A stretch of 34,129 bases of DNA, taken from positions 1 to 34,129 of the forward strand of contig SAAJ01000031.1 in assembly GCA_009929485.1 (NCBI GenBank), read 5' to 3'. This document shows positions 10,321 to 30,859 of the stretch, piece after piece. Every line of letters starts with the position of its first letter. The stretch's first letter is position 1. The stretch comes from Negativicutes bacterium. GTDB lineage: Bacteria > Bacillota > Negativicutes > Anaeromusales > Anaeromusaceae. The notes under the pieces are model-generated. The model saw only the letters and a list, made by a program, of their open reading frames with translations. It was not told the DNA's origin and ran no database searches. The position numbers were made by a program, and so were the translations under genes.

Positions 10321-10494
10321 CGGCATAACTGTATTTGAGACAAGATTTCCGCGCGACTCGCAAAAGCAGGAGATGACGGCAGTTCCGTGAACTCGCTGGC
10401 GCTCAGACATACGGAACTTTATTCCGTCGTCTCCTGTTTTTGCGTCCTGCGGACCGTCTTGCTCCAATAAAAGTCTCAAATACAGTCACTGCCG
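10321..10494 (+). repeat. Structured intergenic repeat, copy A
   Basis: A 174-bp element with nested inverted repeats. The outer arm CGGC...ACTGTATTTGAGAC (10321-10341) pairs with GTCTCAAATACAGT...GCCG (10473-10494). CAAGA pairs with TCTTG. The variable inner stem GCAGGAGA-x-GACGG pairs with CCGTCGTCTCCTG. The apical stem AGTTCCGT pairs with ACGGAACT around a conserved AACTCGCTG..GCTCA loop. A conserved small hairpin GTCC-TGC-GGAC follows. Copies B and C at 27490 and 30684 have the same plan with different paired arms. Confidence 0.9.
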
Positions 10495-10500
10495 TCGCAA

Positions 10501-10594
10501 CCTCAGTCGTGTCCTCACGTTACTGTTGTTGAAAATTATACCGCGTAACCCTCCGTCGAACCCTCACTCTACTCACTCTACTCTTGTTTAAATT
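10501..10594. repeat. Dispersed pyrimidine-rich intergenic module
   Basis: CCTC-rich text ending ACTCTACTCTTGTTTAAA directly follows structured repeat A. It belongs to the same family as the modules at 18781, 21364, 26441, 27666 and 30871. No gene is visible between 10159 and 10600. Confidence 0.75.
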
Positions 10595-10600
10595 TCGTAC

Positions 10601-11956
10601 CTAAATGTGCTTGAGCAGAGAAGAAGCGATGCCCACGTATTGCGCTGGTGTCAGGGAAAGCAGGCGCTGCTTGTCAGCGGCCGGCAGGTCGACGCTTTCG
10701 ATAAAGGATTTGATGTCGGTTTCGCTGATGCCTTTGCCGCGGGTAATAGCTTTGAGCTTGTCGTAGGAATTGGCATGGCCGAATTTGCGCATGACCGTTT
10801 GTACGGCTTCCGCCAGCACTTCCCAGGCATGATTCAGGTCCGCAGCCAGCGCTTCCTGGTTGACGACGGTTTTCTTCAAGCCCTTTAGGGTGTAGGTAAT
10901 GGCGATGTGGGAGTGAGCCAGGCCGGTGCCCATGTTGCGCTGCGCCGAGGAATCGCTCAAATCGCGCTGCAAGCGGGAAATGGGAAGCTTGTTGGCCAAA
11001 TGATCCAGGACCGCGTTGCTCAGACCCAGATTGGCTTCGGAGTTTTCAAAATCAATGGGATTGATCTTATGCGGCATGGTGGAGGAGCCCACTTCGCCGG
11101 GGATGGCTTTCTGCTTGAAATAGCCCATCGAAATATACAGCCACATGTCGCGGTCGAAATCCAGCAGGATGTTGTTGAACCGGGCCAGCGCATGGAAGGC
11201 TTCGGCTACATAATCATGCGATTCGATCTGCGTGGTCAGTGGATTGTAAGTAAGGCCTAAGGATTCCACGAAAGAGCGGGATACTTGCTCCCAATCTACT
11301 TCCGGGTAAGCAATGCTGTGGGCGTTGAAGTTGCCTACGGCGCCGTTGAACTTGCCTAAGTACTCCAAAGCGCGGATTTGCTTTAACTGGCGGTTCCAGC
11401 GATATACAAAGACGGCCAGTTCTTTGCCGATGGTGGTGGGCGAAGCGGACTGACCATGGGTATGGGCCAGCATGGGAATGTCTTTTTCTTCTTCCGCCAT
11501 GGCGGATACCATTTTCACCAAAGTTTCAGCAGACGGCAGCCAGACGTCGTTGACGCCGTGCTTGAGCATCAGCGCGTAGGACAGATTGTTGATATCCTCA
11601 GAGGTGCAGGAGAAGTGAATGAATTCGAGCAAATCTCCCAGGGACATGGCGCCCATGGTTTCGCGCAGGAAGTATTCGACTGCTTTTACATCATGGTTGG
11701 TAGTGCGTTCGATTTCTTTGATGCGGAGAGCTTTTTCGTCGTCAAAGGTGGCGACGATGTTGCGCAAGAAAGAAATTTCTTCTGCGGTGAAGGGGCGAAT
11801 TTCCGCAAAATCTGGGTTAGCGGCCATGGCAATTAACCATTCCACTTCCACATGCACCCGATATTTAATCAAAGCCCATTCGGAAAAATAATCGCCAAAA
11901 GGCTGGGTAATCGCTCCGTACCGTCCCTCGAGCGGCGTCAATGATTTAATGCTCAT
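10601..11956 (-). CDS. purB: Adenylosuccinate lyase
   Basis: PurB catalyses two steps of purine synthesis: SAICAR to AICAR plus fumarate, and adenylosuccinate to AMP plus fumarate. The 451-residue protein is of the E. coli type, starting MSIKSLTPLEGRYG. It has the helical lyase core with THGQSASPTTIGKE (catalytic His), the fumarase/lyase signature GSSTMPHKINP in the mobile loop, and the following LQRDLSDSSAQRNMG. Length matches the E. coli-type enzyme. The ATG at 11956 has a GAGGT site seven bases upstream. It is a lone pur gene here, divergent from the ArsC/Spx-like gene. No obvious own terminator is seen; the downstream region is repeat DNA. Confidence 0.96.
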   Translation of the reverse strand: MSIKSLTPLEGRYGAITQPFGDYFSEWALIKYRVHVEVEWLIAMAANPDFAEIRPFTAEEISFLRNIVATFDDEKALRIKEIERTTNHDVKAVEYFLRETMGAMSLGDLLEFIHFSCTSEDINNLSYALMLKHGVNDVWLPSAETLVKMVSAMAEEEKDIPMLAHTHGQSASPTTIGKELAVFVYRWNRQLKQIRALEYLGKFNGAVGNFNAHSIAYPEVDWEQVSRSFVESLGLTYNPLTTQIESHDYVAEAFHALARFNNILLDFDRDMWLYISMGYFKQKAIPGEVGSSTMPHKINPIDFENSEANLGLSNAVLDHLANKLPISRLQRDLSDSSAQRNMGTGLAHSHIAITYTLKGLKKTVVNQEALAADLNHAWEVLAEAVQTVMRKFGHANSYDKLKAITRGKGISETDIKSFIESVDLPAADKQRLLSLTPAQYVGIASSLLKHI

Positions 11957-12022
11957 GTTTATACCTCGTTATTTCAAATTTTCATGGACAGCAAATAACC
12001 ATCTGCTGCGCATATATAGTCT

Positions 12023-12051
12023 ATTGTACTACTAAACGGCTGAGGGAACAA
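12023..12051 (-). promoter_or_regulatory. Probable purB promoter
   Basis: On the minus strand TTGTTC (12051-12046), a 17-base spacer and TACAAT (12028-12023), about 70 bases upstream of the purB start. Confidence 0.6.
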
Positions 12052-12160
12052 TTGCCATCTAAGAAGTGGCTTTGAGAAAATTCCAGAGGCAGGATTTGTT
12101 GCGAAAGGCGAGAAAACTGCTTAATAAGCTATTTGGTTAATTTCTGAAGGGGGTCGAAGT

Positions 12161-12532
12161 ATGAACCGTCAATTTATTTGCTATCCCAAGTGCACCACTT
12201 GCCAGAAAGCGAAAAAATGGCTGGATGACCAGGGAATAGAGTATGAACAGCGGCATATTAAGGAACAGCATCCAACGGCGGTCGAACTGGAAGCATGGTG
12301 GAAGCAAAGCGGTTTGCCTTTGAAGCGCTTTTTCAATACCAGCGGTCTTTTATATAAATCCCTGCAATTAAAGGAAAAACTGCCAACCATGTCGGAAACA
12401 GACATGCTGGCCTTATTGGCGACGGATGGCATGCTGGTCAAACGGCCCCTGCTTATTGAGGACGGCAAAGTATTGGTGGGATTTAAGCAGGCGGAATGGG
12501 AGCAAGCCAAAGCGGCGGAGGCCGTTGAGTAA
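12161..12532 (+). CDS. ArsC/Spx-family thioredoxin-fold protein (arsenate reductase-like)
   Basis: A 123-residue single-domain protein of the ArsC/Spx/YffB superfamily. The N-terminal FICYPKCTTCQKAKKWL gives a C11-x-x-C14 redox motif plus C7. The middle FFNTSGLLYKSL and C-terminal VKRPLLIEDGKVLVGF are family hallmarks. The CxxC favours an Spx-like redox or reductase protein over glutaredoxin-linked ArsC, but true arsenate reduction cannot be judged from sequence and no ars genes are nearby. AAGGGGGT precedes the ATG. The downstream peptidase gene starts 9 bases after the stop, so the two form an operon. Confidence 0.85.
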   Translation: MNRQFICYPKCTTCQKAKKWLDDQGIEYEQRHIKEQHPTAVELEAWWKQSGLPLKRFFNTSGLLYKSLQLKEKLPTMSETDMLALLATDGMLVKRPLLIEDGKVLVGFKQAEWEQAKAAEAVE

Positions 12533-12541
12533 GGAGGACCC

Positions 12542-13969
12542 ATGGAGGCGATAAGCGGCAAAAAAGGATTGCGGGCTTCTTGGCGGACCATCGCCCAAGG
12601 CGTAGGCGTTGCTTTATTGTGGGCGTTAAGTATGTTTTGGAGCGTTGAAACAGCTTGGGCGCAGGAGAAACCGCCAGAACTGATGCAGGCACAGAGCATA
12701 AACGGAGCGTATTTGGCTGATTTTACAACTGGTTCTTTTGAGGGAACGCAACGAACGGCGCAGGGAGAACTTGTTTTAGCTGGGCCTAGGACGACCTTTG
12801 GCGTATACTACTCGCCTGTTCTCGGAAGTGCGCCTTTTACAGAGGCGGTACTGTCGTGGAATGCCGCTACCCCACAGAGAACGAACGTAGAAGTGCAGGC
12901 ACAGGTTCGTGTTGACGGCAAGTGGTCAGCTTGGTTTTCCTGGGGAAAGTGGAACTCTTGGAGCGCCGTCGGTTCGGAGAACAAGGCGATAAAAGACGAG
13001 TTAGCCGTTATGGATATTGATACTCTTAAAGTGGCAAAAGGGAAAATGGCCGATGCGCTGCGGTATCGCGTCTATTTAAGTAGTGTACAGGCTCAAGGTA
13101 CGCCTCAACTTACCCTGCTGGCGGTTGCGGTAAATGCCGGACCAACAAGGTTGAAGGAATTCGTAGCGCGAAAAGACGTGGTGCTGGAGGTCCCGGCTTA
13201 TGCGCAGCGGCGAAGTGATCCAAGTATTGCGGGGCAGATTTGCAGTCCGGTGTCGATGGCTATGGCGCTCAACTATCATGGAGTGGGCGTATTGCCGGAG
13301 GAAATGGCTTGGCGCGCGAAAGATCATAGCCAAGACCGCTTTCCCTTTGGCAATTGGTCTTTCAACTGTGCCGCTGCCGCAGACTTTGGGCTAAAAGCGT
13401 ATGTGGCGCATGAGAATTCGTTGGCAGAACTCAGAGAAACGCTGCAGCAAAAAGGCCCGGTTATCGCTAGCGTCATGTACAAGAACAGTGAAGCTGTTCC
13501 CGATGAATTGCCTGTGCTGCATGGTGCGCCGGTAGAGGAGACAGATGGACATTTGGTAGTAGTGCGAGGCCTGGTGCAGCAAGGCGGTAAGGACTGGGTC
13601 ATCGTAAACGACCCGGCAGGAGACAGCGATTCGGTGCAGCGGCAGTACGAGGCTGGGGAATTTGAAAAGGCTTGGACGCATTATGTGTATGTAATTGCAA
13701 AAGAAAAAAAGGCCGTCCTCAGGCAGCCACGGCGTATTCCGGTAAAATTATTGCAAGTATCGGCCCAGGCCATTTTGCTCCAAGGCCAAGGGGGCGAACG
13801 TATCCCCTTGGAGCTGCAAAACATCGGCAGTATTGTGAAACGAAAAAATCAGGAAACAATCGGTTTTTTACAGCCGGAAACCCTGGGGGCGTTATTGCTG
13901 AATCTAGAAAAAGACTGCGAATGGCTGCTTGTCACCAAACAGCAACAAACGTTTTGCTTAACGTTCTAA
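12542..13969 (+). CDS. Exported C39-family peptidase with N-terminal beta-rich domain
   Basis: A 475-residue secreted protein. The signal peptide covers residues 1-40 (hydrophobic VALLWALSMFW, cleavage after AWA). Residues about 45-215 are beta-rich (EVQAQVRVDGKWSAWFSWGKW) and resemble the N-terminal domain of peptidase_C39_2 proteins. The catalytic domain has C234 (GQICSPVSMAMAL), H337 (DGHLVVVRG) and D357 (VNDPAGD). The last 80 residues form an unrecognised extension. GGAGG sits 5 bases before ATG, within 9 bases of the upstream ArsC/Spx-like stop. Its 3' end overlaps the convergent AraC-type gene by 12 bases. Function is probably envelope or extracellular peptide/amide hydrolysis, substrate unknown. 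Confidence 0.82.
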   Translation: MEAISGKKGLRASWRTIAQGVGVALLWALSMFWSVETAWAQEKPPELMQAQSINGAYLADFTTGSFEGTQRTAQGELVLAGPRTTFGVYYSPVLGSAPFTEAVLSWNAATPQRTNVEVQAQVRVDGKWSAWFSWGKWNSWSAVGSENKAIKDELAVMDIDTLKVAKGKMADALRYRVYLSSVQAQGTPQLTLLAVAVNAGPTRLKEFVARKDVVLEVPAYAQRRSDPSIAGQICSPVSMAMALNYHGVGVLPEEMAWRAKDHSQDRFPFGNWSFNCAAAADFGLKAYVAHENSLAELRETLQQKGPVIASVMYKNSEAVPDELPVLHGAPVEETDGHLVVVRGLVQQGGKDWVIVNDPAGDSDSVQRQYEAGEFEKAWTHYVYVIAKEKKAVLRQPRRIPVKLLQVSAQAILLQGQGGERIPLELQNIGSIVKRKNQETIGFLQPETLGALLLNLEKDCEWLLVTKQQQTFCLTF

Positions 13970-14821
13970 CGGCAGAGAGTAATATTTTTTTGGAGATACT
14001 CCGTGCGCTTTTTTAAAGGCTCGCGTAAAATTGGCATAATCTTGAAAGCCGCTTTCTAGGCAGGCTTGGAGTACGGAATGGCCTGCGCGGAGCAATTGTC
14101 CGGCGGCGATTAAACGTCGTTGCAGGACATATTGATGCGGCGTAAAACCGGTATGCTCTTTGAATTTGCGTGAGAAGTAACTGGGCGTAAGAAAGCAAAG
14201 AGAAGCTAATTTTTCCACGGACAAGTCTTCGGCGGTGTTTTCTTGCATATAATGCAAAATCGCATTAATCGTATCGTCGCTGCGGCGCTCGATATTGCTC
14301 GGTCCTGTTTGTCTCAAAGAAAGACGATTTAGATATACTAAAAGTTGCAGGAGTAACGTGCGTTGCAGGATATCTGCACCAAAGGCAGCGCTTATTCCTG
14401 CTTCTTTTAGTTGCGCGCATAACTCCTGCAAACGAAGCTGCAGGGGCGCTTCAGGGCGAAGCAAATGCAGACCGCTAGCCGTTGGCGCAAAACAGGCTCG
14501 CAGGTCGGCGCTGGAGGTGCTGTTCGCTTCTAGAAAAGAGGGAGTGAGCCACAAAATGATACGGTTATACGGGACGGTAGAATCGATAAGCGGTTTGTGA
14601 ATGGTGTCCCTTTCAATAAGCAGCAGATCCCAAGGCTGCAGCGGATACGAGGTTCCTTCCACATAATACGTGACGTTGCCGGAAAGAAAAATGACGATCT
14701 TATTGAAATCGTGGTAGTGAGAATCAATGCGCAATTTTCCTGTGTCCTGCAAATGAAAAAAAGAAAACTCTTTGGTCAAATACCCTCTGCGGTTGGTTAG
14801 GTCCGTTCTATTATTTTTCAT
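13958..14821 (-). CDS. AraC-family transcriptional regulator with cupin sensor domain
   Basis: A 287-residue one-component regulator. The N-terminal cupin domain (about 15-150) shows the DSHYHDFNKIVIFLSG metal/ligand-site pattern and YPLQPWDLLLI. The C-terminal double helix-turn-helix (about 185-285) has LASLCFLTPSYFSRKFKEHT and ACLESGFQDYANFTRAFKKA followed by GVSPKKY. The frame also permits a GTG at 14839; neither start has a good ribosome site, so the start is uncertain. It is divergent from the DapF-like gene, whose control region it may bind, and its 3' end overlaps the convergent peptidase gene. Confidence 0.9.
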   Translation of the reverse strand: MKNNRTDLTNRRGYLTKEFSFFHLQDTGKLRIDSHYHDFNKIVIFLSGNVTYYVEGTSYPLQPWDLLLIERDTIHKPLIDSTVPYNRIILWLTPSFLEANSTSSADLRACFAPTASGLHLLRPEAPLQLRLQELCAQLKEAGISAAFGADILQRTLLLQLLVYLNRLSLRQTGPSNIERRSDDTINAILHYMQENTAEDLSVEKLASLCFLTPSYFSRKFKEHTGFTPHQYVLQRRLIAAGQLLRAGHSVLQACLESGFQDYANFTRAFKKAHGVSPKKYYSLPLER

Positions 14822-14896
14822 AGCAAAGTAATTCGCCACAGCAGGTTTTGCAACCTTTTTTTCAGCTTCTGCAATGTTTGCGCAAGCAGAGTTGTT

Positions 14897-14902
14897 TATA
14901 AT
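14897..14902 (+). promoter_or_regulatory. Candidate -10 element for the DapF-like gene
   Basis: TATAAT 35 bases before the start codon, in the spacer divergent from the AraC-type regulator. No good -35 is seen at normal spacing, as expected for an activator-dependent promoter. Confidence 0.45.
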
Positions 14903-14936
14903 GAACTTGCAAAATATAGGCAGGAGGAATGAATAG

Positions 14937-15791
14937 ATGAAATTTCATTTTTTCAAATATCATGGGTTGGGGAATGATTACTTGGTGTTAGATCCAAACT
15001 GTTTTGCCTGGGAGCTTTCGCCGGAGACGATTCGATTGTTCTGCCATCGCCATTTTGGCGTAGGGTCGGATGGTATTTTACTGGGGCCATTTCTGGAAAA
15101 TGGCCAGATGCGTTTGCGCATTTTCAATCCTGACGGCAGTGAAGCCGAAAAAAGCGGCAACGGGGTGCGCATTTTTTCGCGTTACTTGGTAGATGCTGGT
15201 TATGTTACTGGGAGCAATTTTTCGTTAACTACCTTAGGCGGTCAGGTAGAGGTAGAGCTGCTGGCCAAGGACGGCAGCCTCAGCCGGGTAGACATGGGAG
15301 CGGTGAGCTTTCTTAGCAGTCAAGTTCCGGTGAAGGGGGCCGAACAAGAACTGGTCGGCATCCCTTGGCCGGTGCAGGGAGAAAACGTGCTGATAACCTG
15401 TCTTTCTGTGGGCAATCCGCATTGCGTCATTTTACGTGACGAAGTATCGGCAGAAGAAGCTTGCCGTTTAGGTCCTGTCATTGAAAGGCATGAACGGTTT
15501 CCGCAGCGGATTAATGTGCAGTTTTTAAAAGTCTTGGACCGGCGGAATATCCAGATTGAAATTTGGGAACGAGGCGCCGGTTACACGCTGGCCTCAGGCA
15601 GCAGCAGTTGTGCTGCCGCTGCTGCCGCCTATCGCTTAGGGTTGGTAGACGCGGCGGTAGACGTGCATATGCCGGGCGGTGTGTTGGCGGTGCAGCAGCG
15701 CGAGGACGGTCATGTGCTGCAAAGCGGCGCAGTATCTTTTGTGGGAAAGGGCTGCTTTGCAGAAGAACTATTGAAGCAAGGAAAATCTTAG
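14937..15791 (+). CDS. Diaminopimelate epimerase family protein with Ser replacing both catalytic Cys
   Basis: A 284-residue protein with the two-fold DapF architecture: FKYHGLGNDYLVLD at the N-terminus, FNPDGSEAEKSGNGVRIF, GNPHCVI, and ERGAGYTLASGSSSCAAAA. In DapF the two active-site bases are Cys73 (EMCGNG) and Cys217 (LACGTG). Here the equivalents are S73 (codon 15153-15155) and S220 (codon 15594-15596). Substrate-site residues (N12, N64, GNPH, GNG) are kept. It could still be the lysine/peptidoglycan epimerase, but it is more likely a paralogue with altered chemistry. GGAGG precedes the ATG. It lies opposite an AraC-type regulator, unusual for a housekeeping dapF, so I leave the gene symbol blank. 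Confidence 0.85.
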   Translation: MKFHFFKYHGLGNDYLVLDPNCFAWELSPETIRLFCHRHFGVGSDGILLGPFLENGQMRLRIFNPDGSEAEKSGNGVRIFSRYLVDAGYVTGSNFSLTTLGGQVEVELLAKDGSLSRVDMGAVSFLSSQVPVKGAEQELVGIPWPVQGENVLITCLSVGNPHCVILRDEVSAEEACRLGPVIERHERFPQRINVQFLKVLDRRNIQIEIWERGAGYTLASGSSSCAAAAAAYRLGLVDAAVDVHMPGGVLAVQQREDGHVLQSGAVSFVGKGCFAEELLKQGKS

Positions 15792-15810
15792 ACAACAAGC
15801 GGTGTTTTAG

Positions 15811-15842
15811 GAAGGATGCGCATTGTCAGCGTCCTTCTTTTT
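15811..15842 (+). terminator. Intrinsic terminator of the DapF-like gene
   Basis: GAAGGATGC pairs with GCGTCCTTC (one G-U) around a 9-base loop, followed by a T-rich tail. Confidence 0.75.
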
Positions 15843-15888
15843 CTTTATGATGTAGATAATGAAAAAGAACGGAGGTCTGGCGGGACCC

Positions 15889-17136
15889 ATGAAAATAGGA
15901 TTATCCAAGCGGAATTTGCTGTTGTCGGCATCGGTTGCCGCAGTTTTATGGATAGGAACGTATTTTGCGCCGCTGCTGGCAGTTGCGCCAACTCATGTGA
16001 TGCTGACGCAAACGGCCAATCCGGCGGCGGAGCAGACTGTTATCTGGCATACAGGCCCTTTGAGCAAGGCTAGCAAAGTAGAATTCTCCGAGGCGACGGG
16101 CGGCGCAGTCCAAAGTATTACCGGTACGGAAAAAGAACTGCAGACGGAACGGGGAATGATTGTTGTTCATGCTGTGCAGCTGACTGGACTCAAAGCGTCC
16201 ACTTCGTATCGTTACCAGGTTGGCGACGGGGTATTCTGGAGCGAAAGCCATACCTTTACGACGGCTCCAGCTCAGGCCAAGCCCTTTCGCTTTCTGCTTT
16301 TCGGGGATTCTCAAAGCTATACGTATGAGCTGTGGCAGGAGGTGCTGCACGCAGCGTATGCCAGGAGTCCGCAGGCGTCGTTTATGGTGAATATTGGAGA
16401 TCTGGTGGACGTAGGCCTTGACTATGGTCAATGGGACGGCTGGTTCCAGGCGGGGAAAGGGATCATCGACGCCATTCCTGTGGCGGCGGTCATGGGAAAC
16501 CACGAAACCTACACGCCTCAGGGAAAGATTGCCTTGCCGGATTACTTTGACGCTTTTTTCTCTTCGCCAGGAAACGGGCCGGAAGGCCTGAAAAAACGAG
16601 TATATTCTTTTGACTACGGAGACGCTCACTTTTCGGTTCTCGACAGTCAGCGCCAAGAAGAAGAGCCTTGGCTGCCGCAGATGCTGGCATTGCAGCAGGC
16701 TTGGTTGGAACGGGACTTAGCGGCGACGGATAAACGCTGGAAGCTTGTATTTATTCATCGGCCTTTATATCACAACCGTCCGTCTTTGGATTCGGACGCG
16801 GATTTGCGAGCAGCCTTTGGGCCCATTTTAGATCGCTACGGCGTGGACGTCGCTTTTGCCGGACATGATCATGTCTACGCTCGCTCTCATCCGATGCAAG
16901 GAGGTCGATGGAGTGAAGCGCCGGGAGACGGCGTTGTCTATATCACTGTAGGCCGCAGCGGCACGAAGACCTTTGCCAGAGCGCAGCCCAAAGAATGGGA
17001 CGCCGCCTTCCATAACCCGGTGGCGCAGCCGAATTACTTGACCGTGGATGTGAGTGATACGGAGTTAACGGTGCAGAATTTTGCCGCAGACGGCACGGTC
17101 CTTGATTCTTGGACGAAAGGACTTGAGAAACGCTAG
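15889..17136 (+). CDS. Exported purple acid phosphatase-like metallophosphoesterase
   Basis: A 415-residue secreted or membrane-anchored hydrolase. An N-terminal hydrophobic segment (about residues 7-29) is followed by a fibronectin-like PAP N-terminal domain (about 30-125; GLKASTSYRYQVGDG). The metallophosphoesterase domain carries all metal-ligand blocks: LLFGDSQSY, NIGDLVDVG, GNHE, VFIHRPLYH and FAGHDHVYARSH. It ends with VYITVGRSGTK, typical of PAP-like enzymes. The frame opens at 15859, but I place the start at ATG 15889, which has GGAGGT upstream with a rather long 12-base gap. The likely role is phosphate release from extracytoplasmic phosphoesters. Confidence 0.88.
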   Translation: MKIGLSKRNLLLSASVAAVLWIGTYFAPLLAVAPTHVMLTQTANPAAEQTVIWHTGPLSKASKVEFSEATGGAVQSITGTEKELQTERGMIVVHAVQLTGLKASTSYRYQVGDGVFWSESHTFTTAPAQAKPFRFLLFGDSQSYTYELWQEVLHAAYARSPQASFMVNIGDLVDVGLDYGQWDGWFQAGKGIIDAIPVAAVMGNHETYTPQGKIALPDYFDAFFSSPGNGPEGLKKRVYSFDYGDAHFSVLDSQRQEEEPWLPQMLALQQAWLERDLAATDKRWKLVFIHRPLYHNRPSLDSDADLRAAFGPILDRYGVDVAFAGHDHVYARSHPMQGGRWSEAPGDGVVYITVGRSGTKTFARAQPKEWDAAFHNPVAQPNYLTVDVSDTELTVQNFAADGTVLDSWTKGLEKR

Positions 17137-17200
17137 TTAGCAGGCAGATGGTTTCTGGGAAAAGATTTTTCTTGCTGAGTGTTTCGTAGGTAAAAAGAGC

Positions 17201-17230
17201 TTGCCGGTTGTTTGTTGCTTCACTTATAAT
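17201..17230 (+). promoter_or_regulatory. Promoter of the LivJ-type lipoprotein gene
   Basis: TTGCCG (17201-17206), 18-base spacer, TATAAT (17225-17230), about 78 bases before the ATG at 17308. The 17137-17300 spacer otherwise shows nothing recognisable. Confidence 0.55.
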
Positions 17231-17307
17231 TATACAGACCAATAGTTATTCGTGTGTATTGGAAAAGGACGAATATGTTATTAGAGAAAGATAACGGGGG
17301 GAGAACT

Positions 17308-18627: not shown

Positions 18628-18638
18628 ATAAAATACAG

Positions 18639-18780: not shown

Positions 18781-18876
18781 CCCTCGTACCCTCCATCTAC
18801 TCACTCTACTCTTGTTAAAATTACGCACTCCGTAACCCTCCTGCGTACCCTCCGATTCTCTCGCGACTCTTGTTCA
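18781..18876. repeat. Dispersed pyrimidine-rich intergenic module, two units
   Basis: Two CCCTCC-containing units ending ACTCTTGTTAAAA and GACTCTTGTTCA follow the palindrome at 18639. Confidence 0.75.
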
Positions 18877-24008: not shown

Positions 24009-24049
24009 AATAATCTCTCCTCTGCTTTTGTTTTCCAGGGGGCGGAAAC

Positions 24050-24087
24050 AAAAAAAATCGTCCCCTGGCATTGCTGCCAAGAGACGA
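24050..24087 (-). terminator. T-box regulated terminator
   Basis: Minus strand TCGTCTCTTGGC pairs with GCCAGGGGACGA, followed by eight T. The alternative antiterminator would use the T-box sequence at 24110-24101. Confidence 0.9.
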
Positions 24088-24344
24088 AAGCATACACTTC
24101 CGTGGTACCACTCTTGTTGATATGAAATATATCCACTCTGCAGGCGCGGCCCATCTAGGCGATGCCTCTCTCGTGATAACGGCGAGATGCCCGTTCACGC
24201 CTACTTGCTGATTGCGTTCGGGTGAATGCTCAAGGGTGAGTTTCGCTATAGCGCGGTACGCTGTTTCACACCAACCAACAGCTCTCTGAAGTGACGCGGC
24301 GCTAGGCTTTTTCCCTTTCAATGCATTTTGTATATTAAAATCTT
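24050..24344 (-). promoter_or_regulatory. T-box leader (tRNA-sensing riboswitch), probably leucine-specific
   Basis: On the minus strand the leader has the T-box sequence TGGTACCACG (24110-24101), the stem I block AGAGAGCTG..GGTTGGTGTGAAACAGC, and a terminator. The Stem I base pairs AAGGG (24317-24313) with CCCTT (24236-24232); TAGCGC (24304-24299) pairs with GCGCTA (24254-24249). The specifier-loop strand then reads GCGAAA-CTC-ACCC, so the codon (24240-24238) is CUC, leucine. The variable T-box base is U, matching a tRNA with discriminator A, as in tRNA-Leu. Known T-boxes permit transcription when the cognate tRNA is uncharged, so the fusion gene should be induced by leucine starvation. Confidence 0.88.
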
Positions 24345-24350
24345 GGTTAT

Positions 24351-24379
24351 AACTTAGCAAAATGACTAATCTTTGTCAA
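24351..24379 (-). promoter_or_regulatory. Promoter of the T-box leader
   Basis: TTGACA (24379-24374), 17-base spacer, TAAGTT (24356-24351) on the minus strand. Confidence 0.7.
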
Positions 24380-24577
24380 GAAGAAAGTTACAAAAAAATA
24401 TTAAAAGAGCAAAAGCAAAGATGTTAGTGTAAATTAACATCCGTTGTAATCGAAGAGGTAGTAAGTGTTATGACGTGAAGAGCATTGTAAGAAAGATGGC
24501 AGGGGCTGATTTTTGTGGTACACTAAGGAAGCGCCTGAGTCGCAATGTGTAACGAACAAGGAGGAACTAAAAAACCC

Positions 24578-26251
24578 ATGGAAATGCAAGAAAACAAAGC
24601 ATATAGCCGCAGTGATTTTTTGTCGTGGGGGATGCTGGCTTTGCTTTTTGTGTATATGTTGTCTCTGAACTTTCTCATGCCGCTGCATCGCGATGATTAT
24701 TGGTATTCCTTGATTTGGGGAACGATGGACAAGCTGGCGGTTTGGCCGGATGTATTTCAATCCATGTATGCCCATTATTTGACTCACGGCGGTCGCATGA
24801 CGGCCTATGTGGTGCTGAGCAGTTTTTTGCTGGCAGGCAAGTTTTGGTTCAACTTATTCAACTCTTTTATGTATGTAGCCTTGATTGTGCTGATGTACTG
24901 GCATTCGCAACGCCAGCTTACCTGGCGCTTTCAGCCGCATGTTTTATTGCTGCTGATTACCTTTACGTGGCTGGGGCTGCCTCATTTTGCGGAAGTGACG
25001 ATTTGGATGGCCGGCTCGTGCACCTATTTATTTACGGCTGTGTTGATTCTTGCGTTTTTTCTCCCCTACCATTTTCAAGCCTTGGGCAGAGGACTGTGGC
25101 AAGGCGGTTTTTGGGCGTCTTTAAGTATGCTGATTTTGGGCGTGCTTGCAGGCTGGGGTATTGAAAATACTTCAGCTACCACGGCTTTTGTCAGTTTTTG
25201 CGCCACCTTCTATTTTTACAAGAAGAAACAGCCGCAAACGTGGATGCTGACCGGCTGTTTTGGCGCGGTACTGGGGATGGTTATGCTGGTTGCTGCGCCG
25301 GGAAACTATGTGCGTTTTGACGATTCGAAAACAAAGCTGCTTTATCATTTTACCAATCTTATCGCTGCCGGGGCGGAGGCGCTGCTCTATGTGCTGCCGG
25401 TAGTGTTGTTTTTGCTGCTGGCCTGGCGGGTTTTGCGGGCTTGCCACGAGAAAGGCGCTGCTGCGGCAACGGAAAACCGAAAGCTGGACGGAACTTTTAT
25501 TTTTTCCTCTGTCATGACTATGGCGGCAATTGCTTTTTTGCTGCTTTCCTATAGCAACGGTCATTTCTTTTCTACTTGGCTGGGACCGCTGCTGATAGCT
25601 AAGGTGGCCGTGCCGCTGGGCGTCGCGACGCCGCGGTTGCAGGTGCAGCTTTTTAATACCTTGTCCGGTCTGGAAGAGATGCTGATCTATCTGCTTACGA
25701 TCGCGCAACTCTATCGGTATGCCTTTACCAAGCTGTCGTTGCGCAAGAAGGATTTGAGAGGCGCACGCAGCGGCTGGGGGGAGATTATGGCAGTGCATCC
25801 GGCTTGCTGGCATGTAGCGGCCTGGTTGGCGCTGGCTCTGTTTAACCATTTTGTCATGGTGGCGTCGCCCCGCTTTCCGGCGCGGGCTACCTTTGGGTCA
25901 GTCACGTTTTTACTGATTGCCACAGCCGGCGTATTCACCGTGCCCGAAGTGCGTCAATACTTTTTGGAGACGGCTCGCAGGAAATACATGGCGCTCTTTG
26001 CGGTCTTGGTTCTGCTGCCCATGATGGCGGCAACCTTGAATCAATATGTGACCATCCATCGGGAAGACGGGGCGCGGATGGCTTATGTGCGGGAAATGAC
26101 GGCTCAGGGAGCGACAGAGCTCGAAGTGGCGCCGATTTCCATCAAAAATCGCGTACTGCGCCATGTGTACTTTGAGGACTTGAACAATTCCGTCTCGCGT
26201 GACCTGCTCTGCAATTATTACGGCTTGAAAACGATCAAGCTGAAAGAATAG
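24578..26251 (+). CDS. Polytopic membrane protein, DUF6056/GT-C glycosyltransferase-like
   Basis: A 557-residue membrane protein with about ten to twelve hydrophobic segments. Near the N-terminus, after the first helix, it has LHRDDYWYS and then GRMTAYV, a pattern of the DUF6056 family; the acidic pair after helix 1 resembles the catalytic loop of GT-C glycosyltransferases that use polyprenyl-phosphate sugars. A soluble C-terminal tail of about 60 residues follows the last helix. AAGGAGG lies 13 bases before ATG 24578; the in-frame ATG at 24545 lacks a site. It shares the region with a deacetylase, GtrA and a DPM-type transferase, which supports a role in envelope glycan assembly. Confidence 0.7.
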   Translation: MEMQENKAYSRSDFLSWGMLALLFVYMLSLNFLMPLHRDDYWYSLIWGTMDKLAVWPDVFQSMYAHYLTHGGRMTAYVVLSSFLLAGKFWFNLFNSFMYVALIVLMYWHSQRQLTWRFQPHVLLLLITFTWLGLPHFAEVTIWMAGSCTYLFTAVLILAFFLPYHFQALGRGLWQGGFWASLSMLILGVLAGWGIENTSATTAFVSFCATFYFYKKKQPQTWMLTGCFGAVLGMVMLVAAPGNYVRFDDSKTKLLYHFTNLIAAGAEALLYVLPVVLFLLLAWRVLRACHEKGAAAATENRKLDGTFIFSSVMTMAAIAFLLLSYSNGHFFSTWLGPLLIAKVAVPLGVATPRLQVQLFNTLSGLEEMLIYLLTIAQLYRYAFTKLSLRKKDLRGARSGWGEIMAVHPACWHVAAWLALALFNHFVMVASPRFPARATFGSVTFLLIATAGVFTVPEVRQYFLETARRKYMALFAVLVLLPMMAATLNQYVTIHREDGARMAYVREMTAQGATELEVAPISIKNRVLRHVYFEDLNNSVSRDLLCNYYGLKTIKLKE

Positions 26252-26265
26252 CCGAGATTAGGAAC

Positions 26266-26292
26266 GAACAAGAGAATCGGAGAACCGGAGGG
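26266..26292. repeat. Dispersed intergenic module, exact 27-bp copy
   Basis: Identical over 27 bases to 7083-7109 and, reverse-complemented, to 27739-27765. It lies 14 bases after the membrane-protein stop codon. Confidence 0.9.
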
Positions 26293-26358
26293 GCCGCAAG
26301 AGGGGAAAAGCCGGTACTTCAAGTAACAACAGGATTCAGAGAGAAATTTAGAATTTTT

Positions 26359-26401
26359 AAAAGCCAGTGAAACCTTTTAAGTAAGGATTTCACTGGCTTT
26401 T
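26359..26401 (+). terminator. Intrinsic terminator of the DUF6056-like gene
   Basis: 14-bp perfect stem AAAAGCCAGTGAAA with its complement around a 15-base loop. Confidence 0.85.
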
Positions 26402-26440
26402 CTGGATACTGTTGATCTTTTTTGATTATACTTCCAAACA

Positions 26441-26535
26441 TCGTAAGCCTCATGCGAGCCCTCAGGTTCTCATCGCGACTCCTGTTCAATCCAACCTCGT
26501 CGTGCCCTCCCTTTACTCCTTCTACTCATGTTTAA
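26441..26535. repeat. Dispersed pyrimidine-rich modules, two units
   Basis: GAGCCCTCAGGTTCTC...CTCCTGTTCAA followed by GTGCCCTCC...CTACTCATGTTTAAA. No gene is visible in 26252-26550 apart from the terminator and these modules. Confidence 0.7.
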
Positions 26536-26550
26536 ACATTCCGTTCTTTC

Positions 26551-27399
26551 TCACGGAATATCCCGGAAAGAAGCCAGGGTGATCGAGCGCTCTTTGAGCA
26601 GCGATTTCGCTTGGCTGCTCAGGGCGGTTTGCAGCTCTTCTTCGAACTGGTGAGCCCAGCCGCAGGCGGCGGCTAAAGCCTGATTATCCGTGCCGGGATG
26701 AATCATGATTTCCGTGGAACCTGCAGGCAGCTTGCGCAAAATTTCTAAGAAGCTTTCTTCCCGCAGGCCGCCTCCGGCGACAATGCCGAAGAAATGGTCC
26801 GGCGTCCGAAACCCGCGCTGCCGCGCCTTGCGGCGGGCTAAAGCGGCTAGGAAGATAAGGCCGGAACGGCCGACGAACTGTCCAGGCGTACAGGAGTAGC
26901 CGCCGGTAAAGCCGAGCGGTACGGAGGGAATGCGTACGGCTTTGATTTGGTGGGCCGCGGCCAGTTCTAAGGCGATGTCGATAATTCCAGGCAGCACATG
27001 AAGATGCTGGTGGCTGTCAATATGGGTGATGCGCAGGCCGCTGTCGACAACTTTTTGAATTTGAGCGGCCAGTTCGGCGCGCACTTCTTTTAAAGAAACG
27101 GCGCCTTTAAAAAAGCGAGCCATAAACTGCGGGTATTTTTCAGCAAGCTGGCCGTTTTCATCGACTAAGCTGGGGATTTGCTCCGGCGGCAGCAAGGGCT
27201 TCTCGCCGATGAGCGTCAAATGTACCCCTACTCCTAACGAAGGATGAGCGGCTGCCTTGGTTACGGCGTCGTCAAAAGCGGCGGCGCTGGGCATCAAGGT
27301 GGCGCTGGTGATGCAGCCTTCTACATGACCTTGAATGACAGCATCGTTTATGAGAACATGACGGCCGAAATCATCGGCGTTGACAATGAGTTTTCGCAT
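26551..27399 (-). CDS. ChbG/HpnK (YdjC)-family carbohydrate deacetylase
   Basis: A 282-residue metal-dependent deacetylase fold. The N-terminal KLIVNADDFGR (catalytic and metal Asp pair), GVGVHLTL and ITHIDSHQHLHVLPGI carry the conserved D/H metal ligands. The C-terminal EIMIHPGTDN is also conserved. The N-terminal style and the HLHVLPGI block resemble HpnK-like members more than ChbG of chitobiose operons. ATG 27399 has AAGGAG six bases upstream, preferred over the open frame to 27453. In the context of GT2, GtrA and a GT-C-like protein, deacylation of a lipid-linked amino sugar is plausible but inferred. Confidence 0.87.
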   Translation of the reverse strand: MRKLIVNADDFGRHVLINDAVIQGHVEGCITSATLMPSAAAFDDAVTKAAAHPSLGVGVHLTLIGEKPLLPPEQIPSLVDENGQLAEKYPQFMARFFKGAVSLKEVRAELAAQIQKVVDSGLRITHIDSHQHLHVLPGIIDIALELAAAHQIKAVRIPSVPLGFTGGYSCTPGQFVGRSGLIFLAALARRKARQRGFRTPDHFFGIVAGGGLREESFLEILRKLPAGSTEIMIHPGTDNQALAAACGWAHQFEEELQTALSSQAKSLLKERSITLASFRDIP

Positions 27400-27489
27400 G
27401 AGTACTCCTTTTTTCTGTGTCAGATAGTAAAAATTTTTATGGTTGAAAACCAAGATGTATCAAGAAATACATGGATTTACATAAAACTA

Positions 27490-27665
27490 GCGGCATGCTT
27501 GCATTTGTGACAAGATTTGCACGCGCCTCGAAAAAGCGAGCTAAGTCGGCAGTTTCTTAACTCGCTGTGCTCAAGCAGGCGAAACTGTACTCCGCCTTAG
27601 CTCGCTTTTTCGTCCTGCGGACCGTCTTGTTCCAATAAAAGTCTCAACTACAAGCATTGCCGCCG
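27490..27665 (+). repeat. Structured intergenic repeat, copy B
   Basis: A 176-bp element. The outer arm GCGGCATGCTTG (27490-27501) pairs with CAAGCATTGCCGC. GCGAGCTAAG pairs with CTTAGCTCGC (inner stem), and CAGTTTC pairs with GAAACTG (apical stem) around AACTCGCTGTGCTCA. The hairpin GTCC-TGC-GGAC and the tail CTTGTTCCAATAAAAGTCTC are conserved with copies A and C. It lies upstream of the HpnK-like gene in the spacer after GtrA. Confidence 0.9.
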
Positions 27666-27768
27666 CGACCCTCTACATACCCTCCATCTACTCCCTTTAC
27701 TCCTGTTAAAAACATCGTACTCCGTGTCCTCCGGCGTTCCCTCCGGTTCTCCGATTCTCTTGTTCAAT
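27666..27768. repeat. Dispersed pyrimidine-rich modules following repeat B
   Basis: Three CCCTCC/CTCC units. The last (27739-27765) is the exact reverse complement of 7083-7109. No gene is seen between 27400 and 27780. Confidence 0.85.
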
Positions 27769-27780
27769 CCTGCTCCCTAA

Positions 27781-28185
27781 TTATCGGTTCCCTAGACGGA
27801 AGACCACATGCTTGCTGGCAAAATAGTTAAGAATCGCCACAAGCCCGCTTGCCGCCAGTTTCGCTGCGGCATCAGGGATGAGCAGTGCTTCGACCATGAT
27901 AATCATCGAAAGAATATCAGCAAAATACGAAAGGGTTCGGAAAAAGAGAAAACTGGAAAACTCTCTGCAGAGAAGGGCGATATCGGTTTTGCGGCTTTGG
28001 AAGACGTAGAACTTATTGGTGACAAAGGCAAAAAGGACTGCCAGAATCCAAGCCAGAGAGGCTGCGATTTTGTAGTCCAAGGGAATGACCTTGGTAAAAA
28101 ACAGGTAAACAATAAAATTAACCAGTGTGGTCAGCAGGCCAAAAACAATATAGGAACTGGTTTGGCTTATCTTGCATAGCTTCAA
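27781..28185 (-). CDS. GtrA-family membrane protein
   Basis: A 134-residue, four-helix GtrA-like protein (DPMS-associated flippase family). Helix 1 is SYIVFGLLTTLVNFIVYLFF, and the C-terminal NYFASKHVVFR is the family signature. These proteins are thought to help move polyprenyl-phosphate sugars across the membrane. I place the start at TTG 28185, one base after the upstream GT2 stop with GGGAGAG seven bases away, giving tight translational coupling. The frame stays open to an ATG at 28224, which would overlap GT2 by 38 bases. Confidence 0.85.
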   Translation of the reverse strand: MKLCKISQTSSYIVFGLLTTLVNFIVYLFFTKVIPLDYKIAASLAWILAVLFAFVTNKFYVFQSRKTDIALLCREFSSFLFFRTLSYFADILSMIIMVEALLIPDAAAKLAASGLVAILNYFASKHVVFRLGNR

Positions 28186-28186
28186 G

Positions 28187-29227
28187 TCAATTCTCTCCCT
28201 GGTCTTCAAAATGCAGGCGGTCACGGCGGTAGAGGCTTTTTTTGCCGTTGTAATCGTTTACAAGATATAAGGGGCGTCGCTTGGTTTCGTTAAAAACCCG
28301 CGCCAGATATTCGCCGATAACTCCCAGAAAAATAAGCTGGATGCCGCCCAAAAACAAGATGATCGACACCAGTGTGGGGAAGCCTTGTACAGGATCGCCA
28401 AAGATTAGGGTGTTGAAAATGATCCAGCCCATATAAGCAAAGGAGATGAGGGAAATGACCAGGCCGGCAATGGACGAAAGGCGCAAGGGGAAGGTAGTGA
28501 AGGAGGTAATGCCTTCAATAGCCAGATTGATCAGTTTCAGCCAGCTCCACTTGGTTGTACCTGCGGCTCGCAGCGCGGAGTCGAAAAGAATCTCTTTTTT
28601 GCGGTAGCCGATCCAGCTGAAAATGCCTTTGGTATAGCGCTGGGTTTCGCGCATCAATTTGATAGCTTCCACGCAGCGGCGGTCCAGCAAACGGAAGTCG
28701 CCTACATGCTCTTGAATTTTGATGGTGGATATTTTTTGCAGCAGGCTGTAAAAGGTATTGGCCGCCCAGCGGCGGATAAAGGATTCGCCGGTGCGCTGGC
28801 GTCGTTTGGCGCAGACATCGTCATAGCCTTCTTTCCAGTAGGCAATCATTTCCGGAATGAGCTCCGGAGGATGCTGTAAATCGGCATCCATAATGATCAC
28901 GGCGTCGCTGTCGGCGTAATCAAGACCAGCAATCATAGCCAGCTCTTTGCCGAAGTTACGGGACAAATCCAAATAAGAAATCTGCGGATGTTGAGCCGCG
29001 AGCTTCTTGATAACATGCAGTGTATTGTCGGTGCTGCCGTCGTTGATGAAAAGAATTTCAAAGGAGACGGCGGAAATTTCACCGAGAATTGTGTTCAAGC
29101 GCAGCCAGAGCTGTTCCAAAACTTCTTGCTCATTATAGCAGGGGATGAGGAGCGTAATTTTATCCAAAATGGTGTTCATCCTCTCATTGCGGTGGATCAA
29201 AGAAAATACATCGTGTCTATTATACAT
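28187..29227 (-). CDS. GT2 family glycosyltransferase, dolichyl/polyprenyl-phosphate sugar synthase type
   Basis: A 346-residue enzyme with an N-terminal GT-A domain (LLIPCYNEQEVLEQL, INDGSTDNT, DLSRNFGKELAMIAGLD, and the metal motif in IMDADLQHPPELIPEM) and two C-terminal membrane helices (about 262-325), as in GtrB/DPM1-like synthases. It should transfer a sugar from a nucleotide donor to undecaprenyl phosphate on the cytoplasmic face. ATG 29227 has AGGAAGG five bases upstream. It is coupled to GtrA, and the pair normally supplies sugar donors to a GT-C enzyme, for which the 24578-26251 protein is a candidate. Confidence 0.93.
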   Translation of the reverse strand: MYNRHDVFSLIHRNERMNTILDKITLLIPCYNEQEVLEQLWLRLNTILGEISAVSFEILFINDGSTDNTLHVIKKLAAQHPQISYLDLSRNFGKELAMIAGLDYADSDAVIIMDADLQHPPELIPEMIAYWKEGYDDVCAKRRQRTGESFIRRWAANTFYSLLQKISTIKIQEHVGDFRLLDRRCVEAIKLMRETQRYTKGIFSWIGYRKKEILFDSALRAAGTTKWSWLKLINLAIEGITSFTTFPLRLSSIAGLVISLISFAYMGWIIFNTLIFGDPVQGFPTLVSIILFLGGIQLIFLGVIGEYLARVFNETKRRPLYLVNDYNGKKSLYRRDRLHFEDQGEN

Positions 29228-29365
29228 CTGCGCCTTCCTATAAGTACAGATTGAATCCTAAGTCGCAGCGGGTTTGCCTTTTTTATGGGAAAAATTGTTT
29301 TTATTTGGTAAAGTAGAAGTTGAGATATATCGCTGGAAAACTCGTACGGCAAGGAGGCGGAAATA

Positions 29366-30208
29366 GTGGCGGCTGATTTTGACAGAACGCGCGCAGCCTA
29401 TTTTGCGGGCTTGTGTATGTTGCTTGCGGGCATTGCCTATTTGGATCACTTGACCATTCATGAGATTGATTTGTCTATCTTTTATTTACTGCCTGTAGGG
29501 CTGGCCGCTTGGAGACTGGGGATTGTCTGGGGACGCAGCGCAGCCTTTTTGGCGGTAGCGTCGTGGGGCTTGGCGGATTGGCTGGATGACTATGTTTATA
29601 AGCTGCCATGGGGCGTATATTGGGCTTCCGTGAACCATGCCGTCTTTTTTCTGGCTGTGGCTGAAGTAACAGGCCGGTTGCGTCTTGCCTATGAAATGAT
29701 AGAGCGGTCTGCGTTTTGTGATGCTTTGACAGGCTTATATAATCGGCGGGCGTTTTTTACCATGGCGGAAAAAGAATTGCAGCGCAGCCGGCGCTATGGA
29801 TACCCTCTAACAGTGTGCTATATTGACGTGGATCATTTTAAGCGAGTCAATGATACGAGAGGCCATGAGGCGGGGGACCAGTTGCTGTGTGAAATTGCTG
29901 CGGCGCTTACCGAACTGGTGCGCCAAAGTGACATCGTTGCGAGGCTGGGGGGAGACGAATTCGCGCTGCTTTTGCCGGAAACGGATAGAGTGGCCCAAGG
30001 CGTGCTGGAACGCCTGCGCGAGCGTCTGCAACAGCGCATGGACACAGCCGGTTGGCCGGTGACCTTCAGCGTGGGCGCTGTTACTTGTCAGCAGTCGCCG
30101 CGATCCATCGATGATCTGGTACAGTATGCCGATGCGTTGATGTATCAAGTGAAGCATCAAGGGAAAAACAAACTACTTTATGAGGTGTGGCAGGAGGAAA
30201 ATAAATAG
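29366..30208 (+). CDS. Membrane-bound diguanylate cyclase
   Basis: A 280-residue signalling protein. Residues 8-100 contain about three to four hydrophobic segments. Residues about 115-278 form a GGDEF domain with DALTGLYNRRAFF, the intact catalytic motif GGDEF (195-199) and an RxxD inhibitory site RQSD (186-189) five residues upstream. It should make c-di-GMP with product inhibition. The start is GTG 29366 with AAGGAGG upstream. It is followed by the small SH3 gene after 81 bases. Confidence 0.93.
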   Translation: MAADFDRTRAAYFAGLCMLLAGIAYLDHLTIHEIDLSIFYLLPVGLAAWRLGIVWGRSAAFLAVASWGLADWLDDYVYKLPWGVYWASVNHAVFFLAVAEVTGRLRLAYEMIERSAFCDALTGLYNRRAFFTMAEKELQRSRRYGYPLTVCYIDVDHFKRVNDTRGHEAGDQLLCEIAAALTELVRQSDIVARLGGDEFALLLPETDRVAQGVLERLRERLQQRMDTAGWPVTFSVGAVTCQQSPRSIDDLVQYADALMYQVKHQGKNKLLYEVWQEENK

Positions 30209-30289
30209 CTGTAATTTTCGGAGTTAGTAGGGTTTTGGGTGTGTAAAAAAGAATATATAAACCATAAAGAACAGCAAGAGGTGTCAAAA

Positions 30290-30604
30290 ATGAAATATTG
30301 GACGCTGATGATCCTAATGATACTTTGCTTGGCTGGCATGGGCGGGCAGCAAGGGACGGTGCAAGCGGCTGCAGCAGGTATTGTTTCAGTAGACCAGGTG
30401 AATTTACGCACGGCGCCAAACTTGGAGAGTGCCGTGATTGGCGTTTTAGTGAAAAAAGACGTTGTGCAGTACCTATATAATCGCAATCCCTGCCAGGTAA
30501 ATGGTTATGTTCGGGTGCTGGTCGTGCGGGCTGCAGACAAGAGTCTGGAAGGGATGGAAGGATGGGTTGTTGAGAAGTATTTGTATTGTCCCCAGTCTGA
30601 TTGA
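30290..30604 (+). CDS. Small exported SH3-like domain protein
   Basis: A 104-residue protein with a cleavable signal peptide (KYWTLMILMILCLAGMG, cleavage near QAAAA) and a single bacterial SH3 domain (about 30-104): VDQVNLRTAPNLESAVIGVLVKKD, then GYVRVLV and GWVVEKYL. Such domains bind cell-wall peptides or glycans. ATG 30290 follows GAGGTG at good spacing; the frame extends to 30239. It may be co-expressed with the upstream cyclase. Confidence 0.8.
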   Translation: MKYWTLMILMILCLAGMGGQQGTVQAAAAGIVSVDQVNLRTAPNLESAVIGVLVKKDVVQYLYNRNPCQVNGYVRVLVVRAADKSLEGMEGWVVEKYLYCPQSD

Positions 30605-30617
30605 GACGCATACGTAG

Positions 30618-30660
30618 AAAAGCCATGGCAAAGGGCTTGCTCTTTGCCATGGCTTTTTTT
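30618..30660 (+). terminator. Intrinsic terminator after the SH3 gene
   Basis: 16-bp perfect stem AAAAGCCATGGCAAAG with its complement, 8-base loop, then a T-run. Confidence 0.92.
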
Positions 30661-30683
30661 ACTGTATCAAGTCTTAATAAATG

Positions 30684-30859
30684 GGCGGCATGCTTGCATT
30701 TGAGACAAGATTTGCGCGTGCCTCGCAAAAGCAGGGGAAGACGGCAGTTTCTTAACTCGCTGCGCTCAAACAGGCGAAACTGTGATCCGCATTCCCCTGC
30801 TTTTGCGTCCTGCGGACCGTCTTGCTCCAATAAAAGTCTCAAATACAATCACGGCCGCC
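30684..30859 (+). repeat. Structured intergenic repeat, copy C
   Basis: A 176-bp element. GGCGGC pairs with GCCGCC at the ends, then ATTTGAGAC with GTCTCAAAT. The inner stem GCAAAAGCAGGGGAA pairs with TTCCCCTGCTTTTGC, and the apical CAGTTTC with GAAACTG around AACTCGCTGCGCTCA. The conserved hairpin GTCC-TGC-GGAC and CTTGCTCCAATAAAAG follow. Confidence 0.92.

Follow-up and report, generated by a model that had tools for sequence, protein, structure and literature searches.

The window analysed here, positions 1 to 34,129 of contig SAAJ01000031.1 of a Negativicutes bacterium from the family Anaeromusaceae (assembly GCA_009929485.1), carries three copies of a non-coding repeat that belongs to a real and widespread class of hairpins, defined by the apical loop and lying, by the features tested, outside the described GTAG and CGTC families of palindromic repeats. 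The repeat is present in many copies, its predicted fold covaries and its loop stays constant; its occurrence among genomes is patchy and mostly multi-copy, in several genomes the units are paired in inverted orientation, and in the host genus they keep one polarity. We read the window copies, with moderate confidence, as chromosomal interspersed hairpin-DNA repeats resembling repetitive extragenic palindromes (REPs) and REPINs, whose loop would be recognised by a predicted protein and which would spread via single-stranded DNA.

The initial annotation had described three copies of one nested fold with drifting stem arms and constant unpaired text. The copies lie within 2 nt of the places it gave, and the stem arms it quoted, the apical AACTCGCTG(x)GCTCA, GTCC-TGC-GGAC and CTTGCTCCAATAAAAG are all present; copy B has CTTGTTCC. 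Each window copy is a single unit. The exact 19-nt loop motif AACTCGCTNCGCTCARACA is found only in copy C; copy A has one extra G, and copy B has two letters changed. The parts of the copies are given below in window coordinates, with helices numbered as in the alignment of 34 host copies; G001 and G002 are genomes of the two sister species.

10319..10494, + strand: copy A, subtype 2 (loop GAACTCGCTGGCGCTCAGACA), with outer arms, inner stem and apical hairpin
10262..10318, + strand: upstream module of copy A (CTAACGAACCGCGAAATACACGAAAAACGCGAAAGGG...), missing along with the hairpin in G002
10495..10581, + strand: CTC-rich downstream module of copy A, missing along with the hairpin in G002 and related to the tails behind copies B and C
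27489..27665, + strand: copy B, subtype 1 (loop TTAACTCGCTGTGCTCAAGCA), with an element at the same place in G001 and G002
30684..30859, + strand: copy C, subtype 1 (loop TTAACTCGCTGCGCTCAAACA), at a place shared with G001 and G002, where G002 has subtype 2
30694..30706, + strand: 5' outer arm of copy C, TTGCATTTGAGAC, pairing with 30836-30848 (helix 1; 94.1% of cells paired in the 34 copies)
30836..30848, + strand: 3' outer arm of copy C, GTCTCAAATACAA (helix 1)
30724..30744, + strand: 5' arm of the inner, freely drifting stem of copy C (helix 3; changes on both sides in 14 of 21 pairs, 34 copies)
30787..30807, + strand: 3' arm of the inner stem of copy C (helix 3)
30745..30782, + strand: upper stem (CAGTTTC with GAAACTG) and apical loop of copy C (helix 4)
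30754-30772, + strand: exact motif AACTCGCTGCGCTCAAACA in copy C
30783..30786, + strand: asymmetric bulge TGAT on the 3' side of copy C (unpaired alignment columns 92-95)

The predicted fold of copy C has an energy of -74.6 kcal/mol against a mean of -51.5 kcal/mol for 200 dinucleotide shuffles (z -5.8). The window copies have no T run after the 3' arm and thus lack the form of a Rho-independent terminator. Separate terminator-like hairpins precede copies A and C, as judged by eye.

The proposal that the element is multi-copy holds for the host genome as a whole (G000, 3.2 Mb in 134 contigs). When copy C was used as a blastn query, 41 matches were obtained, which correspond to 40 places since one match is the second arm of a palindrome already counted; at least one further, divergent copy exists (L030, 1022-1178), and several copies sit at contig ends. 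The alignment A2 comprises the 34 full-length copies of these 40 places and omits four that are cut by contig ends (L033, L037, L038, L039) and two that are 5'-truncated (L034, L035). The latter two, at G000:C79:22262 and G000:C67:2500, have no 5' half and begin right after the T run of a terminator-like hairpin. In the fold of A2, TTGTATTTGAGAC and GTCTCAAATACAA form the outer arms; a short AAGA/TCTT stem and a long inner stem follow, then an asymmetric 3'-side bulge and the upper stem with its large apical loop. The 3' side of the unit also holds GTCC-TGC-GGAC and a conserved GCTCCAATAAAA stretch. On this alignment a structure of 45 pairs has 91.7% of its cells paired and 17 pairs changed on both sides. 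The covariation score is 0.192 against a shuffled mean of 0.097 (none of 500 shuffles reached it), and falls to 0.034-0.075 when the structure is slid by 1-3 columns. Mean column entropy in the host copies falls from 0.69 bit for the lower inner stem to 0.20 for the upper stem and to 0.16 for both the loop and the GTCC..GGACC region, so the loop and the GTCC..GGACC stretch are the least variable measured part of the copies. Two subtypes, ...TTTCTTAACTCGCTGCGCTCAAACAGGCGAAA... and ...TTCCGCGAACTCGCTGGCGCTCAGACATACGGAA..., occur together in the host.

The same relation between loop and stem is found far beyond the host. Using the covariance model R1 at E <= 0.001, matches were obtained in 14 of 80 relatives (host included), with 37 in the host, 28 and 29 in two congeneric species, up to 36 in other families and one each in four genomes; the class is therefore far wider than one genome. 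Distant copies (nine loci) retain a little-altered loop and, in most cases, TCCTNCGGA on their 3' side, and have stems that are quite different yet paired. The wider alignment A3 contains 52 distinct matches (56 before identical rows were removed) from 40 chosen loci, which include host and genus copies and one Bacillota metagenome-assembled genome (MAG), and mostly represents other families of the class; as it was fitted to the model it leans towards it. In A3, 87.9% of cells are paired, and 28 of 33 pairs are changed on both sides, a number reached by one of 500 shuffles. Covariation amounts to 0.543; shuffling lowers it to 0.141, and sliding to 0.095 or less. The claim of the initial annotation that pairing is kept while sequence drifts is thus borne out by compensatory changes in both alignments, and the signal rises, from 0.192 to 0.543, as more copies are added. 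In other genomes, nine of 11 neighbours within 500 bp of each other are arranged '+ then -', 181-255 bp apart, as REPIN-like doublets, and G015 and G030 have clusters of units in alternating orientation. Two divergent hairpin copies, L074 380-536 and 724-873 (G002:C21), stand just behind an apparent 5S rRNA gene.

A scan of named genome contigs for AACTCGCTNCGCTCARACA returned at least 118 stretches. Among the matches listed are Marinobacter, Variovorax, Ralstonia, Haemophilus, Flavobacterium, Sphingobacterium, Parabacteroides, Clostridium, Lachnospiraceae, Fusobacterium, Nitrospirales, Nitrospinota, Desulfobacteraceae, a Patescibacteria MAG and a Gastranaerophilales MAG, which we take, by our own assignment, to represent about nine phyla. 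With even base use some 15 motif matches would be expected by chance in the whole collection, and single matches in MAGs are therefore weak. Sufficient flanks of the motif were obtained for 125 sites, 118 of them distinct after removal of near-identical ones. At least 12 pairs between the flanks are formed in the minimum-energy fold at 110 of the 118 distinct listed sites; for flanks swapped between loci the figure is 116 of 597, and for random places 164 of 600. By a stricter and cruder score of local complementarity, 72 of the 118 exceed the 99th percentile of swapped flanks. By eye, a bulge in the 3' arm about 8-10 bp below the loop is frequent, reading TTAAC in Bacteroidota and Bacillota and CTGAT or TTGAT in Betaproteobacteria. 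From 18 such loci 17 genomes were reached, and these contain 1 to 75 sites each at one mismatch or less. The motif read backwards gives zero in 15 of them, 9 in G086 (which has 23 sites) and 2 in G091 (which has 8). In an even draw of genomes, with the chosen centres excluded, the exact motif turns up in 4 of 119 from one phylum and in 5 of 118 from another. These nine have between 1 and 12 sites, eight of them more than one, and the backwards motif is absent from all 239 genomes. These frequencies are lower bounds, as exact matching misses copies with an altered loop, window copies A and B among them. In a viral collection the exact loop occurs in 87 stretches, with a single site in each of the 80 listed. 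A search for copy C itself in phages and plasmids by blastn gave nothing, and carriage as phage or plasmid cargo was set aside. The loop, therefore, defines a class that spans phyla, is patchy and mostly multi-copy, and has stems that differ between species.

The orientation of the copies in the host genus follows replication. In G001, the only genome of the genus in a single contig (3.53 Mb), dnaA is located at 642.9 kb; the sign of the GC skew switches between the 600-620 kb and the 660-680 kb samples and a second time around 2.35-2.45 Mb. At E <= 0.01 R1 gives 32 matches in this genome, one of which was dropped because it overlaps a stronger match on the other strand; all 31 remaining copies are directed away from the replication origin, as are the 16 motif sites. 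Judged by local GC skew, the same orientation is shared by 37 of 40 motif sites in G000, all 19 in G001 and all 14 in G002. The + strand in the host genus lies on the lagging-strand template, which is exposed as a single strand. In the mechanism that we propose, the active form would be a DNA hairpin, either single-stranded or extruded as a cruciform, and the apical loop AACTCGCTNCGCTCARACA would be the target of a putative protein. Copying or movement would be carried out by a hairpin-recognising enzyme of HUH/Y1-like type supplied in trans, and by analogy to the way in which REPs and REPINs are thought to move, the spread would proceed through single-stranded DNA at the replication fork. The wider form of this proposal, a pan-bacterial class of mobile hairpins with any stem, whose loop AACTCGCTNCGCTCARACA and asymmetric bulge would be read by one conserved protein and which would move within and between phyla at the fork, is put forward only tentatively, and we consider it rather doubtful.

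The alternative that survives best, although we regard it as unlikely, is a multi-copy structured RNA or an element of 3' untranslated regions, with the + strand transcribed behind genes and the loop read as RNA. Gene contexts, taken from mechanical calls of the longest open reading frames (ORFs), lend it something: the left gene is co-oriented with the element in 31 of the 36 G000 copies that have a left gene called and in 27 of 35 in G001 and G002, and contexts are '++' 18, '+-' 9, '--' 3 and '-+' 2 in G000 (eight have one side missing) and 21 '++' against 6 '--' in G001 and G002. L026, L031 and L040 of G000 and L250 of G001 fell inside ORFs of 119 to 179 aa that were taken as spurious. The stability of the predicted fold, far above that of shuffles, and the covariation of the stems also agree with an RNA. 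However, a G·U pair on the + strand corresponds to A·C on the other, and selection on an RNA strand should favour the former, as it would tolerate G·U. In the stems, the host copies (1524 cells) have 39 G·T against 44 A·C, and the wider set (1525 cells) has 35 against 68, where part of the A·C falls at mostly unformed pairs. These counts are indirect evidence for a DNA hairpin, or for hairpin-templated repair, over an RNA of the + strand. Additionally, the loop strand is more often antisense in G006 ('--' 6 against '++' 3, 15 sites) and in G011 and G028 (3 against 0, 10 sites), and in G001 the orientation tracks replication strictly (31 of 31) and the left gene in only 15 of 19 loci. Nor does a known RNA family appear: at gathering scores, Rfam returned for the window and 18 loci only a T-box (window) and a 5S rRNA (L116), both clear of the hairpins, and at loose E-values only sub-threshold matches, in line with the statement of the initial annotation that it recognised no named family. 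The non-coding RNA that it had offered as one option thus retains the covarying stems and is weakened by the absence of a G·U excess and by an orientation that, in the host genus, tracks replication more strictly than genes. Coding of a peptide by the loop was set aside: ORFs cross the copies on both strands, but the stems covary.

Less probable still, in our judgement, is a chromosome signal useful to the host, in which polar hairpins would be read at the fork, like orientation-biased segregation or repair signals, and would not be mobile. The strict polarity in G001 agrees with it, as do the nine of 11 ortholog pairs conserved above the flanking DNA (discussed below) and the lack of a linked mobile enzyme in the loci examined. 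Nevertheless, carriers make up only the 14 of 80 relatives, host included, and about 4% of drawn genomes by the exact motif, which argues that the element is dispensable; the polarity reverses in other families, and neither sister species has a complete copy A, which is absent or reduced to a remnant. The weakest alternative, a decayed old invasion with stems kept perfect by hairpin-templated (quasipalindrome) repair and gene conversion instead of selection, fits the near equality of G·T and A·C in the host copies and the subtype switches at orthologous places (copy C in G002, L017 in G001), but we hold it to be improbable because repair cannot keep an unpaired loop constant, and this loop is shared across phyla and varies by 0.16 bit against 0.69 in the lower stem.

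The history of the element at shared places was followed by comparison with 48 loci of G001 and G002. The flanks of 13 of the 40 host copies match a compared stretch of one or the other genome, and the element is present there in 12. At the place of copy A, G001 has kept the first 5' arm with the downstream tail directly after it, while G002 lacks the hairpin together with some 57 bp before it and 87 bp after it and has kept the start of the repeated upstream module. We had considered copy A as an empty site in G001 and G002; in view of the hairpin remnant in the former and the module start in the latter, deletion is the better reading. It fits G001, and G002, which is ambiguous, would by itself allow either deletion there or insertion in G000. 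The place of copy C is occupied by subtype 2 in G002, and that of L017 by subtype 2 in G001, which indicates exchange between copies. Of 11 ortholog pairs that share a subtype and have both flanks, nine show higher identity in the element than in either 1.4-kb flank; these identities come from different aligners, and the subtype label of L264, which is unreliable, was not used. Many copies thus seem now to be inherited in place, held by constraint or by gene conversion between copies.

Several observations weigh against a hairpin-DNA element that spreads by a loop-recognising protein, and they are best taken together. No clean insertion was found among the compared sites. No target-site duplication was found around 34 copies, with boundaries set at GGCGGC/GCCGCC: the mean flanking match is 3.74 nt, against 3.63 nt in swapped controls. 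At six of the 12 shared places the ortholog is less close than the best other copy of G000, and gene conversion may contribute to ortholog identity. The changes on both sides of the stems could result from hairpin-templated repair instead of selection. The replication polarity is reversed, and weaker, in G006, where 18 of 55 R1 matches point away from the origin (motif sites, n=32: 8 away and 24 towards; positive local skew at 1 of 12), and reversed in G034, with none of six away from the origin and positive local skew at none of four; a universal replication polarity is ruled out by these two genomes. Elsewhere positive local skew is found at 1 of 5 sites in G011, G028 and G044 together, 6 of 12 in G015 and G030, 6 of 7 in G094, 6 of 7 in G262, 4 of 6 in G244 and 3 of 5 in G241. 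A mobilising enzyme is not found beside the copies either: at the 20 of 51 carrier Y1 loci that were looked at, no R1 copy (E <= 1) lies within up to 1.5 kb on either side, and G001 and G002, each with about 30 copies, have no Y1 gene of RAYT length, by which we mean an open frame of 240 aa or more; the host genome has such a gene at G000:C39:10687. A linked RAYT or Y1 transposase is therefore unsupported by these 20 loci. Each of the ten carriers tested (of 14) has Y1_Tnp genes as such, and so have 26 of the 35 tested relatives without an element match (of 66); those of RAYT length are found in eight of ten carriers and 10 of 35 non-carriers (Fisher p 0.008, not corrected for kinship). The initial annotation had also suggested a miniature inverted-repeat transposable element (MITE). 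The terminal inverted repeats classical for MITEs are there, as the 13-bp outer arms are 94.1% paired, while the target-site duplication and, at the part of the Y1 genes examined, a linked transposase are not.

MITE-like elements of similar size are well known: ERIC elements are 100-200 bp long, with inverted arms and many intergenic copies. RU elements are described with the same length, arms and abundance. The present repeat differs from both in that no target-site duplication is seen and the conserved feature is the loop, not the ends alone. The closest likenesses in outline are to two groups of REPs. The REPINs and GTAG REPs, with their RAYT tyrosine transposases, are described as interspersed extragenic palindromes, often in inverted doublets, that are predicted to form hairpins with compensatory stem changes (PMC3116915); the invariant 16-mers described there overlap two REPs at the hairpin ends (Bertels and Rainey, 2011). 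The constant part here is the apical loop, common to phyla, the units are about 155-176 bp long, the consensus has no GTAG, and no RAYT stands beside the copies in the loci examined. CGTC-tagged REPs are likewise reported as palindromic families in several phyla without a linked transposase, mostly as inverted dimers (Di Nocera, 2013; PMC3733652). As defined in the same report, GTAG and CGTC REPs are palindromes of 20-40 bp with an unpaired terminal GTAG or CGTC tag, and the CGTC families have the terminal CGTC unpaired, stems of 8-9 bp and loops of 4-5 nt. In contrast, the unit here is longer and its loop larger, and CGTC occurs only internally, around GTCC-TGC-GGAC. Transposases of the IS200/IS605 type (HUH/Y1) are described to recognise subterminal secondary structures at the element ends, and some members to target the lagging-strand template (PMC6006769); an activity of this kind would explain both hairpin recognition and strand bias, but no copy was found at the 20 Y1 loci examined and the polarity differs between families. 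The intergenic dyads tied to gene mobility in Haemophilus influenzae (PMC4144887) are alike by description; the loop motif is present in Haemophilus records among the matches listed, and the link to the published dyads is a lead only. An earlier catalogue of the stem-loop families of 40 genomes (PMC2267715) may or may not include this repeat. The element was recognised in no open-licence paper searched, the subscription literature being mostly outside that scope, and 45 papers hold one of six 12-letter cores of the loop, those among the matches listed looking unrelated by title.

The window contains further repeats besides the hairpins. A second dispersed repeat, the pyrimidine-rich CCCTCYATCTACTCNCTCTACTCTTGTTTAAA, stands behind all three copies and at other places has no hairpin before it. 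A repeat like GAACCGCGAAATACACGAAAAACGCGAAAGGGGTT (window 10262-10300) lies upstream of about eleven hairpin copies, and about eight others have TATAAGTTTTTACGGCTGAAAAACCTAG... instead, as counted by eye. The remaining features are the following.

10559-10592, 18787-18820, 26503-26536, 27678-27711 and 30878-30911, with an inverted copy at 7038-7069: the CCCTCYATCTACTCNCTCTACTCTTGTTTAAA repeat
7078-7109 and 26261-26305, with an inverted copy at 27739-27770: the dispersed repeat GGATTGAACAAGAGAATCGGAGAACCGGAGGG; 32 nt are identical between the copy at 7078 and the inverted one
24077-24330, - strand: T-box leader (RF00230, 108 bits), upstream of an 867-aa ORF

The 867-aa ORF behind the T-box appears by eye to be acyl-CoA synthetase-like with an epimerase-like N-terminal part.

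Families of palindromic repeats are as a rule sorted by stem sequence and taxon, a practice that would hide a class held together by its loop. An unpaired loop of 19 nt that is common to phyla and sits on unlike stems points to one recognition event common to many bacteria. The polarity of all 31 copies in G001 makes a mechanism coupled to the replication fork directly testable, and if RAYT-like enzymes are not responsible, another hairpin-handling enzyme would be implied.

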